From an uncultured Gammaproteobacteria bacterium (GTDB lineage Bacteria > Pseudomonadota > Gammaproteobacteria > Pseudomonadales > Azotimanducaceae), in the NCBI GenBank assembly GCA_913049815.1, contig CAJWYI010000002.1, forward strand, positions 1-60,820: a stretch of 60,820 nt of DNA, read 5' to 3'. Below are positions 49,715 to 60,156 of this stretch, piece after piece. The position numbers and the translations under genes were made by a program. A model generated the notes under the pieces. That model worked only from the letters and a program-made list of their open reading frames with translations. It was not told the origin of the DNA and searched no databases. Positions within the stretch are counted from its first letter, which is position 1. Each line of letters opens with the position of its first letter.

Positions 49715-50533
49715 TCATCCAGGGGACTTCAAAGCCGACTCGGGCTGCTTGATGCTCGGATGCCCATAGGGGTCGGTATAGTAACCGAGTGCCGGACCAC
49801 TGGACGTGTACCCCAACAATGCCTGTAGTTCAGGATCCAGATCTTTGGCCACCTCTGGCGGACAGGACAAATACTGATTTTCTTCCTGGCGAAGCCAGCC
49901 AAGACAGTAGGTCAGGTTAATGCCTATGCGAGTTTCATCGGTCTGGTTGGCGCCACCACTGTGCAGGACGCTACCGCTGTAAATCAGTACAGAACCGGCT
50001 GTCATCGTCGCACGATCGAATTCGTCCGCCTCCGCTCGCTGTTCGTCAGGCCATCGATGACTACCCGGGACCACACGAGTTGCGCCATTCTCCTCGGTGA
50101 AATCAGTGAGTGCCCAGATGGTATTGAACTGTGGTTCGATATCTCGCGGTAGATAGCCTCCCCATGCGAGACGATCACGATGGATTATCTGGGCGGGTTG
50201 ACCTGGTCCAATGCTGATCACCTGCGTCAAATGCAGGAGGATTTTTTCCGTCCAGGGCGACAGGAATGCCCTTGCCGCGCCTAACATCGTGTTATCCATC
50301 ACCAATTCACGCACCGCAGAACTTCGCGCCATGAGACCACCTGTCCTGCGTGTCTGAAGACCACTGAAATTGTCCCTCCCATGATGGGTTGCCTCAATGA
50401 GCGGTGCCATCTGGTCTTGGACGTCCATAAGACGCGCGGAATCCAGCACGTCCTCGACAATCAGCGCGCCATCTTCACCAAGTGTCGCGGCAATGGCCTC
50501 GGCGGTTGGACTTTTGAGTCTACGTAGTGGCAT
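49715..50533 (-). CDS. Phytanoyl-CoA dioxygenase family protein (PhyH 6)
   Basis: 272 aa. Iron motif HRD near residue 117 (IIHRDRLAWGGYL), then WALTDFTEENGATRVVPGSHRW, and a distal His in GSVLHSGGANQTDETRIGINLTY. ATG 50533 with GGAG in front is used; the frame is open a little further. The ENGATRVVPGSHRW block is a strong PhyH mark. Next to it on the plus strand lie a LanC-like remnant (downstream) and the DUF3450 gene (divergent). Confidence 0.87.
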   Translation of the reverse strand: MPLRRLKSPTAEAIAATLGEDGALIVEDVLDSARLMDVQDQMAPLIEATHHGRDNFSGLQTRRTGGLMARSSAVRELVMDNTMLGAARAFLSPWTEKILLHLTQVISIGPGQPAQIIHRDRLAWGGYLPRDIEPQFNTIWALTDFTEENGATRVVPGSHRWPDEQRAEADEFDRATMTAGSVLIYSGSVLHSGGANQTDETRIGINLTYCLGWLRQEENQYLSCPPEVAKDLDPELQALLGYTSSGPALGYYTDPYGHPSIKQPESALKSPG

Positions 50534-50679
50534 AAGAGGACTCCGGGAGGCGTAACCATGAGACTGAACCATGCCCAGATTGATGTAAAGCTAATCTCAT
50601 GGTGCCGTATTGACAATCCGGGGGTTGACTTCCATCATCTCGACCCCGACTTTATCAAGCACAGCGACGCGGAGATCGC

Positions 50680-51396
50680 ATGAGTCGAGAGAGCATGTTC
50701 AAAAGAGCGACCACAGCGGCGACGACGCTGATTATCGGTGTCTTACTAAGCCATACCGCCGTGGCAGACAACCATGGTGCGGAAGATCCTGATGCTGAGA
50801 AGCTCAAGGAATATATGGGTGTTGCCAACCTCGTCGATGGCTTAAGGGTCTATAACCGTCAGCAGGAAGCCCTGCTCGCAGACCAGCAGGCTGAGATCGA
50901 TGTGCTAGAACAGTCTATTGACGATATCGCCACAATCAAACGTCAATTGGGGCCTCTGACCGAGCGGATGATTCTGTCTCTTGAGGCGTTCATCAAGCTG
51001 GATATTCCCTTTCGCACCGAACAGCGCCTCGGCGTTGTCGATACCTTGAAATATGATCTCGACCGCGCAGATCTGAACTCAATAGAGAAATTCAGGCGCG
51101 TCATGGAGGCCTATGCCTCCGAGGTCGAGTACGCCACCACAAAAGAAACCTACGCGGGAACCGTCGAGGTGGACGGTCAATCTCGGCAGGTGAATATTCT
51201 GCGCTGGGGTCGCGTCCTTCTCGCGTTCCAAACGCCTGACCATAGTCTCACCGGAGTGTGGGACAACGAATCCCGTGGCTGGAAGTCATTAGGTTCCGAA
51301 TACAATGACGGTGTTCGTGACGCGATGCGTATGGCACGAGGAACAATGACCGAGGACATTGTTCTTTTACCGCTTTCGACGCCTCTTTCAGACTGA
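50680..51396 (+). CDS. DUF3450 periplasmic protein
   Basis: 238 aa with a signal peptide (residues 1-30, ending AVADN). The mature protein is a coiled coil (YNRQQEALLADQQAEIDVLEQSIDDI) followed by the DUF3450 body: IPFRTEQR, RADLNSIEKFRRVMEAYASEVEY, RQVNILRWGRVLLAFQT, GVWDNESRGWKSL. DUF3450 genes usually sit in TonB/ExbB/ExbD operons, but here none of those is present and a PhyH gene follows after 31 bases. GGAG precedes ATG 50680. Gene function unknown. Confidence 0.85.
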   Translation: MSRESMFKRATTAATTLIIGVLLSHTAVADNHGAEDPDAEKLKEYMGVANLVDGLRVYNRQQEALLADQQAEIDVLEQSIDDIATIKRQLGPLTERMILSLEAFIKLDIPFRTEQRLGVVDTLKYDLDRADLNSIEKFRRVMEAYASEVEYATTKETYAGTVEVDGQSRQVNILRWGRVLLAFQTPDHSLTGVWDNESRGWKSLGSEYNDGVRDAMRMARGTMTEDIVLLPLSTPLSD

Positions 51397-51427: not shown

Positions 51428-52375
51428 ATGACCGCTCTCACGGCTGAAGAACTGTCGTTCTTCAAAAACTATGGCTATCTACTGAAATCAAATGCCATAC
51501 CAACTTCTCTATGTCAGCGATTGGTTGATCGCATGTGGGAGTCAGCACCTGCACACCTGGATCGCGACAATCCAAAGACCTGGACAAAGATCTCATTAGA
51601 GAACGCATCGAACGATCCCTTGCTTGTGCACCAGGGCACACGTTGGCAACTGCGTTCCGCCAGTACAGAGCAATTGCTGATCGATGCCGCATGGCACCCC
51701 ACGATTGTCGGTTGGGCCGAGCAACTATTAGGCGAAGGCACGCTACGCAAGCATACGGTCGGTGGTAAACCGATGGGATCCTGGGGCGTAGCCTGGCCAG
51801 GCGGACCGGTGGATCCTCAACTGGGAGAAGGCGTTCGCGGTATCTACGCAACGCTACCGCTCGGTGACGAGCCATCTCCCGATGCATTGCATACGGACGG
51901 CCATCCGTTTCACCTCGGTGTGGTCCTGCTGCTTGAAGACAGTCCATCTAATGGCGGTGCCTTTAAGATCTGGCCGGGGAGTCATCGACGCTTCTATCCA
52001 CTCTTCCCCATGCAATACGACCAGGCGCGCATTCCATTCTACGAGCACCTGCCGTCATTCAAGGGACTGATCCATCCCAAAGAATATCTCGAAGAAGTCA
52101 GGGCAGTGGAAGCAGACACGGATCCCGTGGATTGTCACGGCAAGGCAGGCGACCTGGTATTCTGGCACCACCGCATGGGACATATGGCTGGACACAACAC
52201 TGCCGTGCCTCCCTGTATTCGACAAGCGATGTTGTACGACTTTTGCAAAACCGATCTGGATACCATGCGCCTGACACCACCCCACGAAGATATGTGGCAA
52301 GACTGGGGCCAGGCCTTACAGAACGCGGATGCGCCTGTTTCTAACGCTCTGAAACAGGCGCAACGACTGACCTAA
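51428..52375 (+). CDS. Phytanoyl-CoA dioxygenase family protein (PhyH 7)
   Basis: 315 aa. Begins LTAEELSFFKNYGYLLKSNAI. The iron motif is HTD near residue 154 (ALHTDGHPFHLG), followed by GGAFKIWPGSHRRFYP; a distal His is in HRMGHMAGHNTA, with Arg in IRQAMLYDF. 31 bases after DUF3450, so possibly one transcript. Sequence differs from the other six PhyH proteins, which suggests old divergence, not recent copying. Confidence 0.85.
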   Translation: MTALTAEELSFFKNYGYLLKSNAIPTSLCQRLVDRMWESAPAHLDRDNPKTWTKISLENASNDPLLVHQGTRWQLRSASTEQLLIDAAWHPTIVGWAEQLLGEGTLRKHTVGGKPMGSWGVAWPGGPVDPQLGEGVRGIYATLPLGDEPSPDALHTDGHPFHLGVVLLLEDSPSNGGAFKIWPGSHRRFYPLFPMQYDQARIPFYEHLPSFKGLIHPKEYLEEVRAVEADTDPVDCHGKAGDLVFWHHRMGHMAGHNTAVPPCIRQAMLYDFCKTDLDTMRLTPPHEDMWQDWGQALQNADAPVSNALKQAQRLT

Positions 52376-52424: not shown

Positions 52425-53456
52425 TCATCCCGCCAGTAATGGCAAATCGATCCGCCGCCCTTCACGAAGACTCATCTGAACAGCTTCGGTGAACTCCATA
52501 TAGCGAACGCCGTCTGCAAAACTGGTATGAGTCACCGGCTGACCATCGCGGATCGCATCGATGAAGTCTGCCTCAACGCGCCAACCGCCGCGTTTCTCCG
52601 GCGCAACCTCCAATGCCTTGAATTCACGGTCACCTTTTTCTGCAATCCACGCTTGACCATTCTCGTACTTGAAAGACCCCTTCGTACCAAAGAACTCCAA
52701 CACCCCGTTTTGCCCCATGTGCGAGACCGTACTGAAGTGGTAGACCGATATCGTGCCGCCTTCATGTTCTGAAACGATACCCAGTGACTCTGGGACTTCC
52801 ACAGGTTGCATCTGATCCCGCTCATCTTTACGTTCCGTCGTGAACACCTTGCCATGTGCAACCACGCGTTGCTCGTGGCCTGCGTATCTGCGGATCGTCT
52901 CATTGATGATCCCCATCGACATGATATTGTTTCCCGATAGTTCTCGACTTTGGCGCCAGGTCAACGGTGCGTCGGGAAAGTAACCACCACCCATGCCACG
53001 TGCATGAATTTCTAGCAGCTCACCGAAAAAGCCTGCAGACAACATCTCAAGAACGGTCGGTTCGTACTCGAGGTAGAACGGCGCAGGAACAATCATCGAG
53101 ATAACATCAGCAGACTCTGATGCAACCAGCATCTCGCGCGCCTGCACGAGATCCATCGCCATACGGGCCTCAGTCAAAACGTGTTTACCGGCTGCCAGTG
53201 ATGCCAGCACCATAGGATGATGCATGTAAGGCCATGTTCCAATGCAGATCGCATCGATATCTGGATCGGCGATCAACGCCTGCCAGTCATCCATCACACG
53301 CGGGATATCGAACTCGTCAGCTGCTTTTTTCCCCGAAGCTATGCTCCTGTTGCAAACGGCGTCTACGGAGACGCCTTCGATAGTCTTAAACCCGGGGATA
53401 TGTCGGGATCGTGTATTGGCGCCCGCACCGATGACGCCAATTCTGATGTTGTCCAT
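52425..53456 (-). CDS. Gfo/Idh/MocA-family oxidoreductase
   Basis: 343 aa. Rossmann motif IGVIGAGANTRSRHIPGF at the start; the second family motif, usually EKP, is TEARMAMD here, so the Lys is missing. In this superfamily that Lys takes part in catalysis or cofactor placement, so the protein may differ in reaction or be mainly binding. Otherwise full length, with no signal peptide. Converges with PhyH 7. Confidence 0.86.
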   Translation of the reverse strand: MDNIRIGVIGAGANTRSRHIPGFKTIEGVSVDAVCNRSIASGKKAADEFDIPRVMDDWQALIADPDIDAICIGTWPYMHHPMVLASLAAGKHVLTEARMAMDLVQAREMLVASESADVISMIVPAPFYLEYEPTVLEMLSAGFFGELLEIHARGMGGGYFPDAPLTWRQSRELSGNNIMSMGIINETIRRYAGHEQRVVAHGKVFTTERKDERDQMQPVEVPESLGIVSEHEGGTISVYHFSTVSHMGQNGVLEFFGTKGSFKYENGQAWIAEKGDREFKALEVAPEKRGGWRVEADFIDAIRDGQPVTHTSFADGVRYMEFTEAVQMSLREGRRIDLPLLAG

Positions 53457-53969: not shown

Positions 53970-55013
53970 TCAACGTCCCTCGGGATCGGATAATGGCCGA
54001 CCATCGTCACCTAACGGCAAGCATCGAATCCGATGGTTATCAGAATCACCTATCCATAACCGGTTCTGCGCATCTACGTGCACACCGTGAGGCCGAGCCA
54101 GGCCACACGTTGCTGGATCGCCATCTGGACCATCATGTTGGGTGCCGTCGCCCAATACCGTATCGATCGTGCCATCCGGGAAAACACATCGAACAGTGTG
54201 GCTCTCAGTATCCGCAAGGTAAATACACCCATTCTCAGCAACAGCCAGCCCTTTTGGGCCCGCAAGCCTGGCGGCGGTCGCCGGCCCACGATCGCCTTCA
54301 TAGCCAAACTTGCCCGTACCCGCCAGATGCGCGACATGGCCGTCGGTTATCCGATACAACGCATTCCCCTCCCGCAACGCAAGAATCATAGATCCATCTT
54401 TATCAAATACCATCGTTCGCGGACCGTACAAGTCCACCTCACCGATGGCGCTTCCATCCGACGTCATGCCTTTCTTACCCGACCCACCCCACGTTTCAAT
54501 TAGATCCGTATCGGGGTCGTATCGCCTAATTCTGTGGTTGCCAATGTCTGCAATGTACAGTTTGCCGTCCGGCCCAAATGCGATGCTATGAGGTTGGCAC
54601 AGTTGCGCTTTTCTTGCATCGTCACCGTCGCCTGAGAAACCTGCCCGACCGCTACCCACAACCGTTTCTATGATGCCGCTCGTAGCATCGACCTTTCTAA
54701 CCACATGCGCCTTCATGTCCACGAACCATAGATTGCCCTCACGATCGAAACATAGCTCATAGGGTTCGGTAATGGCCGCGTCTTCTGCGACGCCACCGCT
54801 GCCATCGTTGCCCGCCATATCGCGCCCAACAACTTTCTCGCTAAGGCCATCGATGAATCGACAAATCTTGTGATTCCCAAGATCGCAGTAATAGAGCGCT
54901 CCATCAGGCCCCGTTGCCAACCCGAACGGTTCTGATGTCAACGGTCTGCCGTCAGCTTGGTGGCTTCCTCTTTCACCGTTACCAATCAACGTGTATACAT
55001 GACCTGTACTCAT
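53970..55013 (-). CDS. NHL-repeat beta-propeller protein
   Basis: 347 aa with about six NHL repeats: PFGLATGPDGALYYCDLGNHKICRF, PYELCFDREGNLWFVDMKAHVVRKV, PHSIAFGPDGKLYIADIGNHRIRRY, PKGLAVAENGCIYLADTESHTVRCV and PHGVHVDAQNRLWIGDSDNHRIRCL. No signal peptide from ATG 55013, which has AGGAGA in front; an upstream in-frame start lacks a site. NHL propellers include lyases and lactonases as well as binding proteins; no catalytic residue can be assigned. Divergent from the kinase/enolase-like pair. Confidence 0.87.
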   Translation of the reverse strand: MSTGHVYTLIGNGERGSHQADGRPLTSEPFGLATGPDGALYYCDLGNHKICRFIDGLSEKVVGRDMAGNDGSGGVAEDAAITEPYELCFDREGNLWFVDMKAHVVRKVDATSGIIETVVGSGRAGFSGDGDDARKAQLCQPHSIAFGPDGKLYIADIGNHRIRRYDPDTDLIETWGGSGKKGMTSDGSAIGEVDLYGPRTMVFDKDGSMILALREGNALYRITDGHVAHLAGTGKFGYEGDRGPATAARLAGPKGLAVAENGCIYLADTESHTVRCVFPDGTIDTVLGDGTQHDGPDGDPATCGLARPHGVHVDAQNRLWIGDSDNHRIRCLPLGDDGRPLSDPEGR

Positions 55014-55288
55014 AAGATCTCCTGCACGCATCAACATCGACGCGAGAGCATTCTCGCTCGCATGACATATGGAGTCATCAGTTGACATCAATGGTAAGGG
55101 AACATGCATTACAACCTCACTCGATCGACTCAGCAACTCGTACTACTGATTTCCAGCGCATTTCTGCGGACTCACTCAGTCTTGGCTGGAACACCAGACT
55201 TGCGGTGTTATCGACCCGCCATGCTCGAGGATCTATCGGAACCGCCCCACATCCAACGTGAGGTACGGATTCTCTCCGACCGCTGAAC

Positions 55289-56293
55289 GTGGATATCGAA
55301 GAGCACCCGCAGCTTGTCAAATGGCTTCGGTCGCGTTCGTTGATTGACGACCACGCACCAGATTGTGAGAACCTGACTGGCGGTGTTTCCAACAAAACGG
55401 TACTTGTGACATCATCGTCAGGATCAGTCGTCGTCAAACAAGCGTTATCAGAATTGCGCGTGGCCACTAGCTGGACCTGCAGTCCTGAGCGTATTCATCG
55501 GGAGGGTCTGGGGCTACGTGTGCTCAAGTCGGTTTTACCGTCCGGTGCAACACCCAACTGGCTGGCGGAGGACGAGACGGACCATATCCTCGTAATGTCA
55601 GCCATTCCCAAACCACACGTCAACTGGAAATCGCTACTATTTACGGGACAAAGCGAGACTGGTCAGATCGATCAGTTCGCTGCCTTGCTTGCTGCAATTC
55701 ATACAGCCCCCATTACGGAGGCCATGGCACCGTTTCGCGATACACAGTTTTTCGAAGACCTACGGCTCTCACCCTACTACGGATATACGGCTTCCCGGGT
55801 CGCTGAATCAGCCACGTTCCTCCACGATCTGACTGAAGAGACTCGGCAGCAGACGGATCATCTTGTCCATGGTGACTACAGCCCGAAAAACGTCCTGGTC
55901 CACAATGGCCAACTCATTCTGCTCGATCACGAGGTGATGCATGTCGGTGATCCTGCTTTTGACGTCGGATTTGCTATGACCCACCTACTCAGCAAAGCGC
56001 ACCACCTGACGCCACATCGACGGATATTCGTTAACGCGGCACACCAGTTTTGGTCGCGATACGCTACCCAAACCGACGCTGACCGAGATCTGGCAGAACG
56101 CGCGGCACGACATACCCTCGCTTGTCTGCTCGCCCGCGTGTCAGGTCAATCGCCCCTAGAGTATCTAAGCGCACAAGAGCAGCAGCGGCAAAAGGCAGTC
56201 TGTCTTGAAATCATGCAAGCATCGGCCGTAACGCACATGGACGTAACAATGGTTATCGAATGGTTCATCAAAGGGCTTGGAGGAACCTCATGA
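55289..56293 (+). CDS. APH/methylthioribose-kinase-like phosphotransferase
   Basis: 334 aa. Nucleotide loop GGVSNKTVLV near residue 31, Lys50 (VVVKQAL), the catalytic loop HGDYSPKNVLV near residue 193, and the metal-binding LLDHEVMHVGDPAFDVGF. It belongs to the APH (aminoglycoside/choline/methylthioribose kinase) fold. The stop overlaps the start of an enolase paralogue (ATGA), so the two are translationally coupled, and the kinase most likely makes the phosphorylated substrate for it. GTG 55289 is the start; no strong ribosome site. Alternative: a resistance-type phosphotransferase, less likely here. Confidence 0.85.
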   Translation: MDIEEHPQLVKWLRSRSLIDDHAPDCENLTGGVSNKTVLVTSSSGSVVVKQALSELRVATSWTCSPERIHREGLGLRVLKSVLPSGATPNWLAEDETDHILVMSAIPKPHVNWKSLLFTGQSETGQIDQFAALLAAIHTAPITEAMAPFRDTQFFEDLRLSPYYGYTASRVAESATFLHDLTEETRQQTDHLVHGDYSPKNVLVHNGQLILLDHEVMHVGDPAFDVGFAMTHLLSKAHHLTPHRRIFVNAAHQFWSRYATQTDADRDLAERAARHTLACLLARVSGQSPLEYLSAQEQQRQKAVCLEIMQASAVTHMDVTMVIEWFIKGLGGTS

Positions 56294-57552
56294 AGATTTC
56301 AGAGCTGTCTGCCCTGGAAATTCTGGATAGTCGGGGACGCCCAACCCTAGAAGTCAGTTGTATGTTCGACAGCGGTCACGAGGGTTACGCTCAGGTACCT
56401 TCCGGGGCATCCACGGGGCGTGCGGAAGCTTATGAACTGCGTGACAACGACCCAAAACGCTATCGCGGGCTGGGCTGTCTCAAAGCTGTGGCTCATGTGA
56501 AAGGAGAATTTCGAAACCAGCTAGTAGGTGAATCGTTCAGTGATCAGGCGACGCTCGATCAACGATTACTCGATATCGATGGCACCCACAACAAGTCACG
56601 GTTGGGGGCGAATACGATTCTCGGAATCTCGCTCGCATTTGCGAGAGCTTCCGCCGCTGCCCACAAACAAGCACTCTACGAATACTTCGCCACACTGAAC
56701 GGTCAATCGATCACTACGCTTCCACGGCTCATGGTCAATCTCTTCAGCGGTGGTAAACACGCCGGCGGACAGGTCGCGCTGCAGGACGTGTTGGTAGTAC
56801 CAGGCGGTGCGGCCAGCATCCATAGAAGCCTGCAGGATGTTGTTGCAGTCTACAATACAGCAACGGATCAGATGCTCGAAGACTATGAGATGCGAAAGCT
56901 CACCGCGGATGAGGGCGGTCTGGCGCCGGCATTCCCGAATATTGATGCCATGTTCAAAGGCGCGATTCGGGCCATAAACGTCGCAGGGCTGTCCGGCGAC
57001 GTACAGCTGGCACTTGATGTGGCTGCTTCACATTTCTATTCAGATGCCGGATACATCTTAAACGGCAGAGATTCGATTAATGCCACCGAGATGATCGAAA
57101 CAATGGGCGCATGGGCGCACCAGTACCCAATCGTCAGTATCGAGGACGGACTAGCCGAAGATGACTGGTCGCACTGGCCGCAACTGACAGCAACGCTCGG
57201 AGAACGTTGCCTGACCCTTGGCGATGATCTGCTTTGTACGAATCCTGAGAGAATCCAGAAAGCGATCGACATAAAAGCCTGCAACGCGCTACTGCTAAAG
57301 GTGAATCAGATCGGTACGCTCACAGAGGCTCTGCAAGCATTGAAGCTAGCGCGACGTGCTGGATGGCATGTCACCATCAGTGCACGTAGCGGTGAGACAG
57401 AAGACAATTGGCTCGCGGATCTTGCTGTTGGATGGAGTGCAGATCAGATCAAGGTGGGATCGATCAATCAGTCGGAGCGTCTGGCAAAGTACAACCGGCT
57501 GCTTGCGATTGAACGCGACTTGGAACGAGGTGTGGTGTCGTGGCCAGCTTAG
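56290..57552 (+). CDS. Enolase paralogue lacking the catalytic His
   Basis: 420 aa, the enolase fold over the full length: SALEILDSRGRPTLEV, GASTGRAEAYELRD, GGKHAGG, ADEGGLAP, SIEDGLAEDDW and GDDLLCTN. Magnesium ligands are kept (D243, E285, D312), as are catalytic Lys337 (LLLKVNQIG), E208, His157 and Lys388. Changed are yeast-E168 -> Asp166 (LQDVLV) and catalytic His373 -> Ala365 (SARSGETED, normally SHRSGETED). So it is unlikely to be the glycolytic enolase. Coupled to the kinase gene, overlap 4 bases. Compare the enolase-like CPEP synthase of bialaphos synthesis for precedent. Substrate unknown. Confidence 0.88.
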   Translation: MKISELSALEILDSRGRPTLEVSCMFDSGHEGYAQVPSGASTGRAEAYELRDNDPKRYRGLGCLKAVAHVKGEFRNQLVGESFSDQATLDQRLLDIDGTHNKSRLGANTILGISLAFARASAAAHKQALYEYFATLNGQSITTLPRLMVNLFSGGKHAGGQVALQDVLVVPGGAASIHRSLQDVVAVYNTATDQMLEDYEMRKLTADEGGLAPAFPNIDAMFKGAIRAINVAGLSGDVQLALDVAASHFYSDAGYILNGRDSINATEMIETMGAWAHQYPIVSIEDGLAEDDWSHWPQLTATLGERCLTLGDDLLCTNPERIQKAIDIKACNALLLKVNQIGTLTEALQALKLARRAGWHVTISARSGETEDNWLADLAVGWSADQIKVGSINQSERLAKYNRLLAIERDLERGVVSWPA

Positions 57553-57763
57553 CACTGAACGGACACATCGATGAACGCCGCATGGCGGACCTCTACTGAT
57601 GACCCACGTTGGAAGGCACTCAGCGGAAAAAAGTATTCAGACAGTCTACTCAACCGCAAGATCACCAATGTCGCGTTGCGCCTGCTTCCCATGAGCCACC
57701 TGTGACATAGACACAACAATGACGTGCTAGGATGCTGAGACTTCTCAGCTAACGAGCTCTGAT

Positions 57764-58570
57764 ATGAGTGCTGTACTGACTGAAAATACGGTAACGAAGG
57801 CCAGTGTTGCCATGGGCGCGCGGGTCGAAGGCCTGAACCTGACACGGGAAATGACAGGTGAGGCTGTCGAGCATCTGCGTTCATTGATAAATGAACATCA
57901 TCTCCTGGTTTTACCGGACCAGAATCTTGAGGCACTGGAACTGGAACGTTTCGGCCGCCTCTGGGGTGACCTGCTCACACATCCTTCGACACAACACCGG
58001 GACACGCCTCACGTTCAGTGGATTGCGGGCAAGGATCGTATGTTCAAGTTTTTCCCAGGCACATTCCCTGGTTTTGATGGTTGGCATTCCGATATGACCT
58101 GGCATTCAACGCCCCCGATCTACACCGGTCTTCATGCACGCCGCATGCCGAAGTCCGGCGGCAATACTGCTTTTGCTAATCAGCATCTCGCTTACGAAAT
58201 GTTGAGCGATGAGATGAAGACACGCCTCAATGGTCTAGAGGCATTCCACACAGGCAAGGTGTTCGGACCCGATGTTGAAGATTCCACCCACCCTGTCATA
58301 CGTACCCATGATGACACCGGAAGGAAAGCACTGTTCGTGAATGCTAATTTCACGAAACAGATCATCGGGATGTCTGACACCGAGAGCCAGCTGCTGCTGT
58401 TTGAATTGTTTGCACACTCGGTACGACCAGAGTTCACGTATCGACACCAGTGGGCAGTGAATGACCTGGTTCTATGGGACAACCGGTCAGTCATGCATTA
58501 CGCGATCCAGGACTATGCAGAAAGTCGCGTCATGCACCGCATTGTCGTCAAGGGCGGTGTACCCCGCTGA
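57764..58570 (+). CDS. TauD/TfdA-family dioxygenase
   Basis: 268 aa Fe(II)/2-oxoglutarate oxygenase of the TauD/TfdA type. HSD near residue 107 (GWHSDMTWHSTPP) gives two iron ligands, the distal His is in RVMHRIVVKG (~ residue 260), and 2-oxoglutarate is held by the nearby Arg. DLVLWDNRSVMHYAIQDY is the standard C-terminal block. 211 bases after the enolase-like gene on the same strand, perhaps its own promoter. Substrate may be a sulfonate, a phenoxy acid, a phosphonate or another acid. Confidence 0.9.
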   Translation: MSAVLTENTVTKASVAMGARVEGLNLTREMTGEAVEHLRSLINEHHLLVLPDQNLEALELERFGRLWGDLLTHPSTQHRDTPHVQWIAGKDRMFKFFPGTFPGFDGWHSDMTWHSTPPIYTGLHARRMPKSGGNTAFANQHLAYEMLSDEMKTRLNGLEAFHTGKVFGPDVEDSTHPVIRTHDDTGRKALFVNANFTKQIIGMSDTESQLLLFELFAHSVRPEFTYRHQWAVNDLVLWDNRSVMHYAIQDYAESRVMHRIVVKGGVPR

Positions 58571-58965: not shown

Positions 58966-60156
58966 TCAGCTGTCGCTGCGCAGGTCCGTCCTCAGAAGAT
59001 CGCCCTCATGATCCCAAACCGGTCCGGAGATCTCTCCGGTCTCCAGCTCCTTGTGGGCTTCCCACAGCAGCTGCGGGATATCGAGGTTCTCCGGGCAACG
59101 CGGTATGCAATCTCCACACTTCGTGCACTGGTCACCTTTCTGTCCGAGAATCCAGGCACCTCCGCTGCCCACTTTGGCGTACCGCCCCTGGGCATAGCCC
59201 GTCATATCAAACGCCTTGTCCATCTGGCGCCAGTTGAGCAGTCCTGGAATGTTGATGTTTTCGGGGCAGGGCAAACACTCATTGCAGACGGTGCAGAATT
59301 CAGCACCCAACTTATTGCGATACGCACCTTCAACCTGACCCAGGACCTGGTCAAAGACCGTTCGCTCAGGCCCAGTGCCATCGTAGTCCTGCGCGATCAG
59401 ATTCGCATCAATCTGTTGTGGAGAATTTGGTCCGAAAGATAGTGTGTGTACTTCCGGCTGATTCAGTAGCCACATGTGATTGAACGTCATTGGTGTGAGC
59501 GGCCGACACGCGCGACTCAGTGATTCTGTTGGATCCTGTAGCTTGCCCCCCTGGTTATTGGGACTGATGATGAACACCCCCATGTCCAGCTCAGCTGCGC
59601 GATCAACCACGTGACGAAGGCCCTGGTAGAAATAGTAGTAGTGCAGGTTGATGGACTCGAACTCATTTGTGTTCACCAGCTCCATTACTCCCTTGGGATA
59701 ACCATGGGTCGAGAAACCAAAGTGTCGCACGACACCTTCAGCCATCAGCTTGCGCACGTATCCGAGACAACCGCGTTCCGTCATCGCTGGTGCGACGGTC
59801 TCGTAACTGCCCGGCCCATGGAAGTCGAGGTTGTCCAGGTAATCGATGCCCAGATTTTTCATGGAAATGTCGAAGTTCCGTTTGAACTCATCCACATCAG
59901 AGGACGGTCCAATCTTCGTGGTGATGTAGAGCTCTTCCCTTGGCACTTTCTTCAGGATCTTCTTCAGCGCCTTGCCGACCCGTTCTTCCGAGTTCCCGTA
60001 GCCACGCGCGGTTTCCAGGTGGTTCACACCCAGTTCTACGGCCCGTTCAACGGTGCGGATAGCGTTGCTTTCTTTCGATTTTCCCGTGAATTGCATACAC
60101 CCCAGGGAGTACTGGGACAACATCATTTCGGTGCGGCCAAATCGGCGATATTTCAT
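58966..60156 (-). CDS. Aldo/keto reductase with two C-terminal 4Fe-4S motifs
   Basis: 396 aa. Residues 1-290 form the AKR barrel: YRRFGRTEMMLSQYSLG, VNHLETARGYGNSEERVG, YITTKIG, LDFHGPGS. The tetrad has Tyr53, Lys81 and a His, but the usual Asp is Glu48 (ETA not DTA). The C-terminus has two iron-sulphur motifs: CTVCNECLPCPENINIP and CTKCGDCIPRCPENLDIP. Such AKR-ferredoxin fusions are known in bacteria and archaea, but the function is unclear; electron transfer from NADPH to the clusters is plausible. Confidence 0.88.
   Translation of the reverse strand: MKYRRFGRTEMMLSQYSLGCMQFTGKSKESNAIRTVERAVELGVNHLETARGYGNSEERVGKALKKILKKVPREELYITTKIGPSSDVDEFKRNFDISMKNLGIDYLDNLDFHGPGSYETVAPAMTERGCLGYVRKLMAEGVVRHFGFSTHGYPKGVMELVNTNEFESINLHYYYFYQGLRHVVDRAAELDMGVFIISPNNQGGKLQDPTESLSRACRPLTPMTFNHMWLLNQPEVHTLSFGPNSPQQIDANLIAQDYDGTGPERTVFDQVLGQVEGAYRNKLGAEFCTVCNECLPCPENINIPGLLNWRQMDKAFDMTGYAQGRYAKVGSGGAWILGQKGDQCTKCGDCIPRCPENLDIPQLLWEAHKELETGEISGPVWDHEGDLLRTDLRSDS

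Follow-up and report, generated by a model that had tools for sequence, protein, structure and literature searches.

A kinase gene recurrently paired with an enolase paralog altered at two catalytic positions: a candidate module leading to phosphoenolpyruvate

We analyzed a 60,820-nucleotide stretch of DNA (hereafter the window), which is one entire contig (CAJWYI010000002.1) of a genome assembly (GCA_913049815.1; 2.78 Mb, 85.8% complete) from an uncultured gammaproteobacterium of the Azotimanducaceae, and focused on two overlapping genes in it, one for a small-molecule kinase of the APH fold and one for a paralog of enolase. The two genes form a real and widespread pair, and the paralog carries Asp and Ala in place of a catalytic Glu and the catalytic His of enolase. 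Our tentative reading, somewhat less likely than not, is that the pair is a dedicated two-step module, in which a glycerate-like 2-hydroxy acid other than D-glycerate would be converted to the 2-phospho acid and then to phosphoenolpyruvate (PEP).

The active-site changes had been proposed from the window alone in a first-pass annotation, and alignment to solved enolases bore them out. Ala replaces the catalytic His (ISARSGE versus SHRSGE), Asp replaces one catalytic Glu (LQDVLV versus QEF), and the metal ligands and Lys337 are retained as claimed (Lys337, Glu208, Asp243, Glu285, Asp312 and Lys388 are kept). In the yeast enolase numbering, used from here on for E168, H373, K345, E211 and K396, the catalytic residues E168 and H373 of enolase are thus Asp and Ala in the window paralog. 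Its scores are 158.6 bits for Pfam Enolase_N and 275 bits for Enolase_C, and 446.7 bits for the NCBIfam enolase model TIGR01060 (cut-off 300), so that automatic annotation would name the gene plain enolase or phosphopyruvate hydratase. The AlphaFold2 (AF2) model of the paralog (mean predicted local distance difference test score, pLDDT, 92.4) has enolase 4z17 as its top PDB match. None of the solved structures compared stands out as a member of the paralog family. For the kinase (pLDDT 96.3) the top PDB match is 2pyw, a 5-methylthioribose kinase, and the motifs HGD-x-SPKN and D-x-E, as in the catalytic motifs of APH/choline-kinase-like enzymes, are invariant in 26 aligned sequences. An artefact or a pseudogene was rejected as an explanation, since the frames are open, the fold models confident and the residues conserved.

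In order to find further members of the family, the motif [IV]-S-A-R-S-G-E-T-E-D was scanned against 84,980 species genomes. It matched at least 116 stretches, of which 113 have an enolase homolog at the match, with 37-61% identity to the window paralog. The pattern itself imposed Ala373, R374 and S375 and left E168, K345, E211 and K396 free. Among the matches listed, position 168 was nevertheless Asp in all 105 homologs that cover it, and K345 (113/113), E211 (109/109 covered) and K396 (113/113) were kept; R374 and S375, on the phosphate side, are also kept, as the search pattern requires. Canonical enolases of relatives have E168 and H373 in 31/31 cases, and those read from 20 carrier genomes have E168 in 20/20 and H373 in 19/19 covered. 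The window contains the Ala motif a single time and 100 shuffles did not produce it at all, which together with the paired substitution being fixed in the sampled family argues against a chance signature. Bacterial carriers belong to the Pseudomonadota, Bacteroidota, Chloroflexota, Verrucomicrobiota, Planctomycetota and Acidobacteriota, and to the Actinomycetota, Bacillota, Armatimonadota, Spirochaetota and Myxococcota; haloarchaea also carry the paralog.

The same separation was seen in a tree of 131 rows with both signature columns masked, in which the 28 rows with Glu168 and His373 (E/H) fell on one side of a branch with a Shimodaira-Hasegawa-like approximate likelihood ratio test (SH-aLRT) support of 100. 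Rows shorter than 380 amino acids were excluded from this tree and from a first one; for the masked tree the long-branched L060 was also dropped, and 6 of the 30 canonical rows from relatives were used together with L055 and L056. Plasmids gave a parallel picture in a non-random sample, the 17 loci being chosen by similarity to the variant enolase or to the kinase: all 14 with a kinase have Asp168 and Ala373 (D/A), and all 3 without a kinase are E/H. Judged by these alignments, the D/A change is a fixed signature of the paralog family sampled.

Two genomes have second copies of note. In G043, a genome of the same order, the additional enolase (L056) is divergent but keeps Glu168 and His373 and clusters with canonical enolases. 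Genome G014, from the same family, has a second enolase (L052:600-1829) that aligns with Asp168 and Ala373 but in which the catalytic Lys and His159 columns are altered; this copy is possibly decayed or misaligned.

The kinase is associated with the paralog and not with enolase in general. Among the matches listed, 87 of the 113 enolase loci were testable, having an intact 5' end preceded by 600 bases or more, and at 75 of these a kinase gene in the same orientation lies no more than 2.6 kb upstream, versus 0/30 canonical enolase loci (searched in 1.5 kb flanks where the contig permits). Conservation of the pair in other genomes, which the first-pass annotation had left to a neighborhood survey, is thereby established, and the four-base overlap that it had read in the window was confirmed (Table 1); of the 64 loci with calls for both genes, 22 show exactly the same overlap. 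A kinase search of plasmids matched 33 records, and all 25 of those listed have an enolase within about 6 kb, as judged from match positions and annotation. The association survives beyond one gene arrangement, since the paralog precedes the kinase in Methylobacterium and Rhodococcus, and the two genes lie about 4.5 kb apart on opposite strands in rhizobia. A scan of viral contigs gave two matches, and an enolase was found in neither.

Carriers of the pair do not appear to need it for ordinary glycerate metabolism. Second enolases were counted in genomes from 50 of the at least 116 loci, and 46 of the 50 have one (at least two Enolase_N matches; the second one in G247 is a fragment at a contig end). 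The 20 second copies that were read are all canonical, in line with the expectation that carriers possess another enolase. Glycerate kinases were searched in 23 carrier genomes, and every one has a member of a known family, either GarK-type (12) or another, GckA-type (11), for which we take PF13660 to be the mark. The two types were mutually exclusive across these 23 genomes. With a second enolase and a glycerate-kinase family at hand, the pair is not needed in these carriers to replace the conversion of D-glycerate to PEP, and we rejected, for carriers at large, the idea that it stands in for a missing glycerate kinase or enolase.

Neighboring genes in other genomes are consistent with the catabolism of sugar acids. 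Frequent neighbors are enzymes that release pyruvate and a second fragment (FAH hydrolase, HpaI aldolase, RraA-like proteins), along with 2-hydroxyacid, zinc-dependent or short-chain dehydrogenases and sugar-acid dehydratases, all family names being taken from annotation only. In Enterobacter sp. BIGb0383 the order is kinase, paralog, MFS transporter, 2-hydroxyacid dehydrogenase, FAH and HpaI aldolase, and in Paracoccus and Roseibium a LacI regulator, kinase, paralog, FAH, short-chain dehydrogenases and a sugar ABC transporter. A Cohnella locus (L195) has FAH, a zinc alcohol dehydrogenase, kinase, paralog, galactonate dehydratase (675.9 bits, cut-off 311) and a second zinc alcohol dehydrogenase, assigned by similarity. 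Rhodococcus shows FAH, dehydrogenase, paralog, kinase and FAH. MR/MLE enzymes occur at haloarchaeal loci, to which Haladaptatus adds a protein of the aldolase/citrate-lyase family and Halomarina dgoD, a C-terminal-binding-protein dehydrogenase and RraA; within the window's family, G134 has a GMC oxidoreductase, a small protein that matches no Pfam family, an MR/MLE enzyme, kinase and paralog. Across 54 loci, 13 sugar-acid families account for 50/460 genes within five positions of the pair (kinase excluded) versus 13/320 at positions 6-10 (Fisher p 0.0005). On two Rhizobium plasmids, PEP carboxylase adjoins the dehydrogenase and the kinase, with the paralog about 4.5 kb off, an indication that the pair makes PEP itself.

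The first-pass annotation had proposed phosphorylation followed by an elimination, and these neighborhoods fit such chemistry on a carboxylic acid. Some clusters have pyruvate-releasing enzymes upstream as well as PEP carboxylase downstream, and conversion of a glycerate-like fragment to PEP is then the most economical reading. In the first step, the kinase would transfer phosphate from ATP to the hydroxyl at C2 of a glycerate-like 2-hydroxy acid, which may be the fragment remaining once sugar acids are cleaved to pyruvate and a second piece. In the second, the paralog would bind the 2-phospho carboxylate on two metals, as enolase does; K345 would take the C2 proton and E211 would protonate the C3 leaving group, giving PEP. 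In enolase structures the residues at the two changed positions sit by the C3 leaving group, and E168D and H373A may remodel the C3 pocket for a substrate that the housekeeping enolase refuses. From the active site, and from the glycerate-kinase families present in all 23 carriers tested, we infer a substrate other than 2-phosphoglycerate. As D-glycerate should already be served in carriers, L-glycerate and 3-O-substituted glycerates are the probable candidates for the fragment, and the likeliest substrate of the paralog would be the 2-phosphate of L-glycerate or of a 3-O-substituted glycerate, such as the 3-O-methyl compound. An otherwise unusable fragment would thereby get to PEP. The reactions of both enzymes, like the substrate, are inferred.

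Several observations weigh against this proposal. Glycerate kinases are common anyway, with GarK-type in 5 and GckA-type in 4 of 14 control genomes, and the incomplete genome of the window yielded neither type. A same-strand upstream kinase is missing at 12 of the 87 testable loci (one of the 12 has a kinase on the opposite strand), and for four relatives of the kinase found in the family (G014, G070, G088 and G122) no enolase lies within 1.5 kb. Only 28 of the 54 loci have any of the tested sugar-acid enzymes within five genes, the seed families for the enrichment were picked post hoc from these same loci, and none is significant singly. The Methylobacterium pair and the window's pair have no sugar-acid neighbors, and on a Cupriavidus plasmid a canonical E/H enolase without this kinase also stands beside PEP carboxylase. 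Finally, D-isomer 2-hydroxyacid dehydrogenases and D-galactonate dehydratase adjoin some pairs, which suggests a D-configured fragment; this counts against L-glycerate, and 3-O-substitution is then a guess.

A longer acid is the alternative that survives best, though we consider it unlikely. The kinase would then form a 2-phospho-tetronate or -aldonate, which the paralog would dehydrate to a 3-substituted PEP, the precursor of a 2-keto-3-deoxy acid on which an aldolase could act. Space for a C3 substituent would come from E168D and H373A, the side chains being smaller at both altered positions, and HpaI aldolases do adjoin the pair. Some copies have genes for four-carbon acids nearby: a DUF1537 protein (L097) and a dehydrogenase (L167) beside it match best to D-threonate kinase and L-threonate dehydrogenase, respectively, both below cut-off. 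However, the operons at L195 and L219 already contain an MR/MLE enzyme of the sugar-acid dehydratase type, a recurrent enzyme that could strip the enol phosphate was not seen in the neighborhoods, and the PEP carboxylase neighbors indicate PEP itself.

An ordinary shunt from D-glycerate to PEP, with the kinase as a D-glycerate 2-kinase and the paralog as a specialized enolase isozyme, strikes us as quite unlikely. By established chemistry, galactonate dehydratase and FAH at L195 should yield D-glycerate; D-isomer dehydrogenases adjoin the pair, as does, at L167, a dehydrogenase related to tartronate semialdehyde reductase, and PEP carboxylase near the pair would fit as well. The glycerate kinases and second enolases of the carriers tested oppose this, as do the substitutions themselves, which strike two catalytic residues and are fixed in the covered homologs. 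A racemase or epimerase, in which K345 and E211 or D168 would swap the C2 proton (for example from L- to D-2-phosphoglycerate) and a canonical enolase would dehydrate the product, we regard as improbable. The bases are retained and the two residues near the leaving group are altered, as such an enzyme would have it, and 1,1-proton transfer is common in the enolase superfamily, as PMC6946804 states. E211, the group that acts on the hydroxyl as it leaves, is nevertheless retained wherever the sequences cover it. A biosynthetic or transfer reaction akin to that of the enolase-like enzyme of bialaphos synthesis, the precedent cited in the first-pass annotation, is very improbable, as several neighborhoods have a catabolic look, containing transporters and regulators of the LacI, LysR or GntR type, although no search was directed at phosphonate genes.

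To return to the proposed conversion of a glycerate-like fragment to PEP: enolase is commonly regarded as a single-function enzyme. It may be, though less likely than not, that a second dedicated entry to PEP is widespread in bacteria and present in haloarchaea, the kinase and the altered enolase starting from L-glycerate or else from a 3-O-alkyl glycerate, and the leaving group being water or an alcohol. If so, annotation pipelines conceal this entry under the name enolase, and a catabolic step has been overlooked, its genes misnamed as phosphopyruvate hydratase in many genomes. We found no description of the kinase-paralog pair in an open-access library, a search that left subscription papers mostly outside and does not establish absence from print.

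Within its own lineage the pair is patchy. The kinase was searched in 200 genomes of the family, including the window's, and the best eight other matches were inspected for an adjacent enolase. In G021 and G134 the pair is adjacent (kinase 52 and 49% identical, enolase 62% identical), and G016 and G105 have a more distant pair. The patchiness follows from the four of these eight kinase relatives that have no adjacent enolase, named above, and from G001, the only relative of the same genus, which has a canonical enolase and no match to the window kinase. The first-pass annotation had also looked to a canonical enolase elsewhere in the window's genome, and would have taken the lack of any other enolase there as a refutation. 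None was found, the sole Enolase_C match in this 85.8% complete assembly being the paralog, so that on this count the window's genome, incomplete as it is, goes against the proposal. The remaining 57 of the 58 genomes searched, G001 included, each have a high-scoring enolase (at least 361 bits), and the absent copy is therefore most simply explained by assembly incompleteness.

The first-pass annotation had put the TauD oxygenase in the pathway with the kinase and the paralog, beside the NHL propeller. The kinase and the paralog recur together, but the other two do not: no homolog of the window's TauD oxygenase was near the pair at any other locus examined, and a homolog of the NHL propeller was near it in at most one other locus. 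Both were rejected as members of the module. An SMP-30-type propeller adjoins the pair at L189. Other neighbors were noted at single loci or in small groups. At L206:12354-13463, two genes past the paralog, lies a zinc alcohol dehydrogenase that by eye is similar to the glutathione-dependent formaldehyde type; it would fit released methanol, as a single case. In rhizobia, Cupriavidus, Paraburkholderia and Rhodococcus (L175, L233-L235, L264 and L267), the pair occurs with overlapping sets of an extradiol-dioxygenase-like VOC protein, a cupin, a carboxymuconolactone-decarboxylase-family protein, a zinc alcohol dehydrogenase and FAH. The features of the window at and around the pair are collected in Table 1.

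Table 1. The kinase-enolase pair and its surroundings in the window (aa, amino acids).
Feature	Position	Strand	Remarks
PhyH-family dioxygenase	49715-50572	-	one of two, upstream of propeller
DUF3450 protein	50680-51396	+	upstream of propeller
PhyH-family dioxygenase	51428-52375	+	one of two, upstream of propeller
Gfo/Idh/MocA dehydrogenase	52425-53456	-	upstream of propeller
NHL/SGL beta-propeller	53970-55136	-	Pfam NHL and SGL; divergent neighbor upstream of kinase
APH-fold small-molecule kinase, 334 aa	55289-56293	+	predicted GTG start; Pfam APH 63.9 bits, 2.5e-17
ATGA, overlap of kinase stop and enolase start, 4 bases	56290-56293	+	ggagg just upstream; read directly
Enolase paralog, 420 aa	56290-57552	+	ATG after ggagg; Asp166 (E168 in yeast), Ala365 (H373 in yeast)
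TauD/TfdA-family dioxygenase	57764-58570	+	Pfam TauD 190.8 bits; neighbor, 211 bp downstream of paralog
Aldo-keto reductase with C-terminal 4Fe-4S dicluster region	58966-60156	-	single frame

Among known systems, the class V lanthipeptide enzymes LxmK and LxmY resemble the pair in joining an APH-fold kinase to a lyase partner, and LxmKY is among the structural matches of the window kinase. Its score against the LxmK model is 54 bits, however, well short of the cut-off of 315, and LxmY is presumably not an enolase. MtnK, a 5-methylthioribose kinase of the APH fold, is the best structural match (template modeling score, TM, 0.80) and shares the HGD...N catalytic motif, but identity is 18% and the window kinase reaches 47.5 bits against an MTRK model cut-off of 275. 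PhpH, the carboxyphosphonoenolpyruvate synthase of bialaphos synthesis, is reportedly an enolase-like protein with a different reaction. A parallel in proposed logic, from hydroxy acid to 2-phospho acid to PEP, is a glycerate 2-kinase (GarK or GckA) followed by enolase, although those kinases belong to other families (PF02595, PF13660), one of which is also present in each of the 23 carriers tested. Enolase itself (TIGR01060, PF03952/PF00113) is like the paralog in fold (TM 0.94 to 4z17), in the metal ligands, K345, E211 and K396, and in sequence (40-47% identity to the solved enolases listed). The paralog differs from it in having Asp168 and Ala373 in every covering member, a kinase partner of its own and a separate side of the tree.

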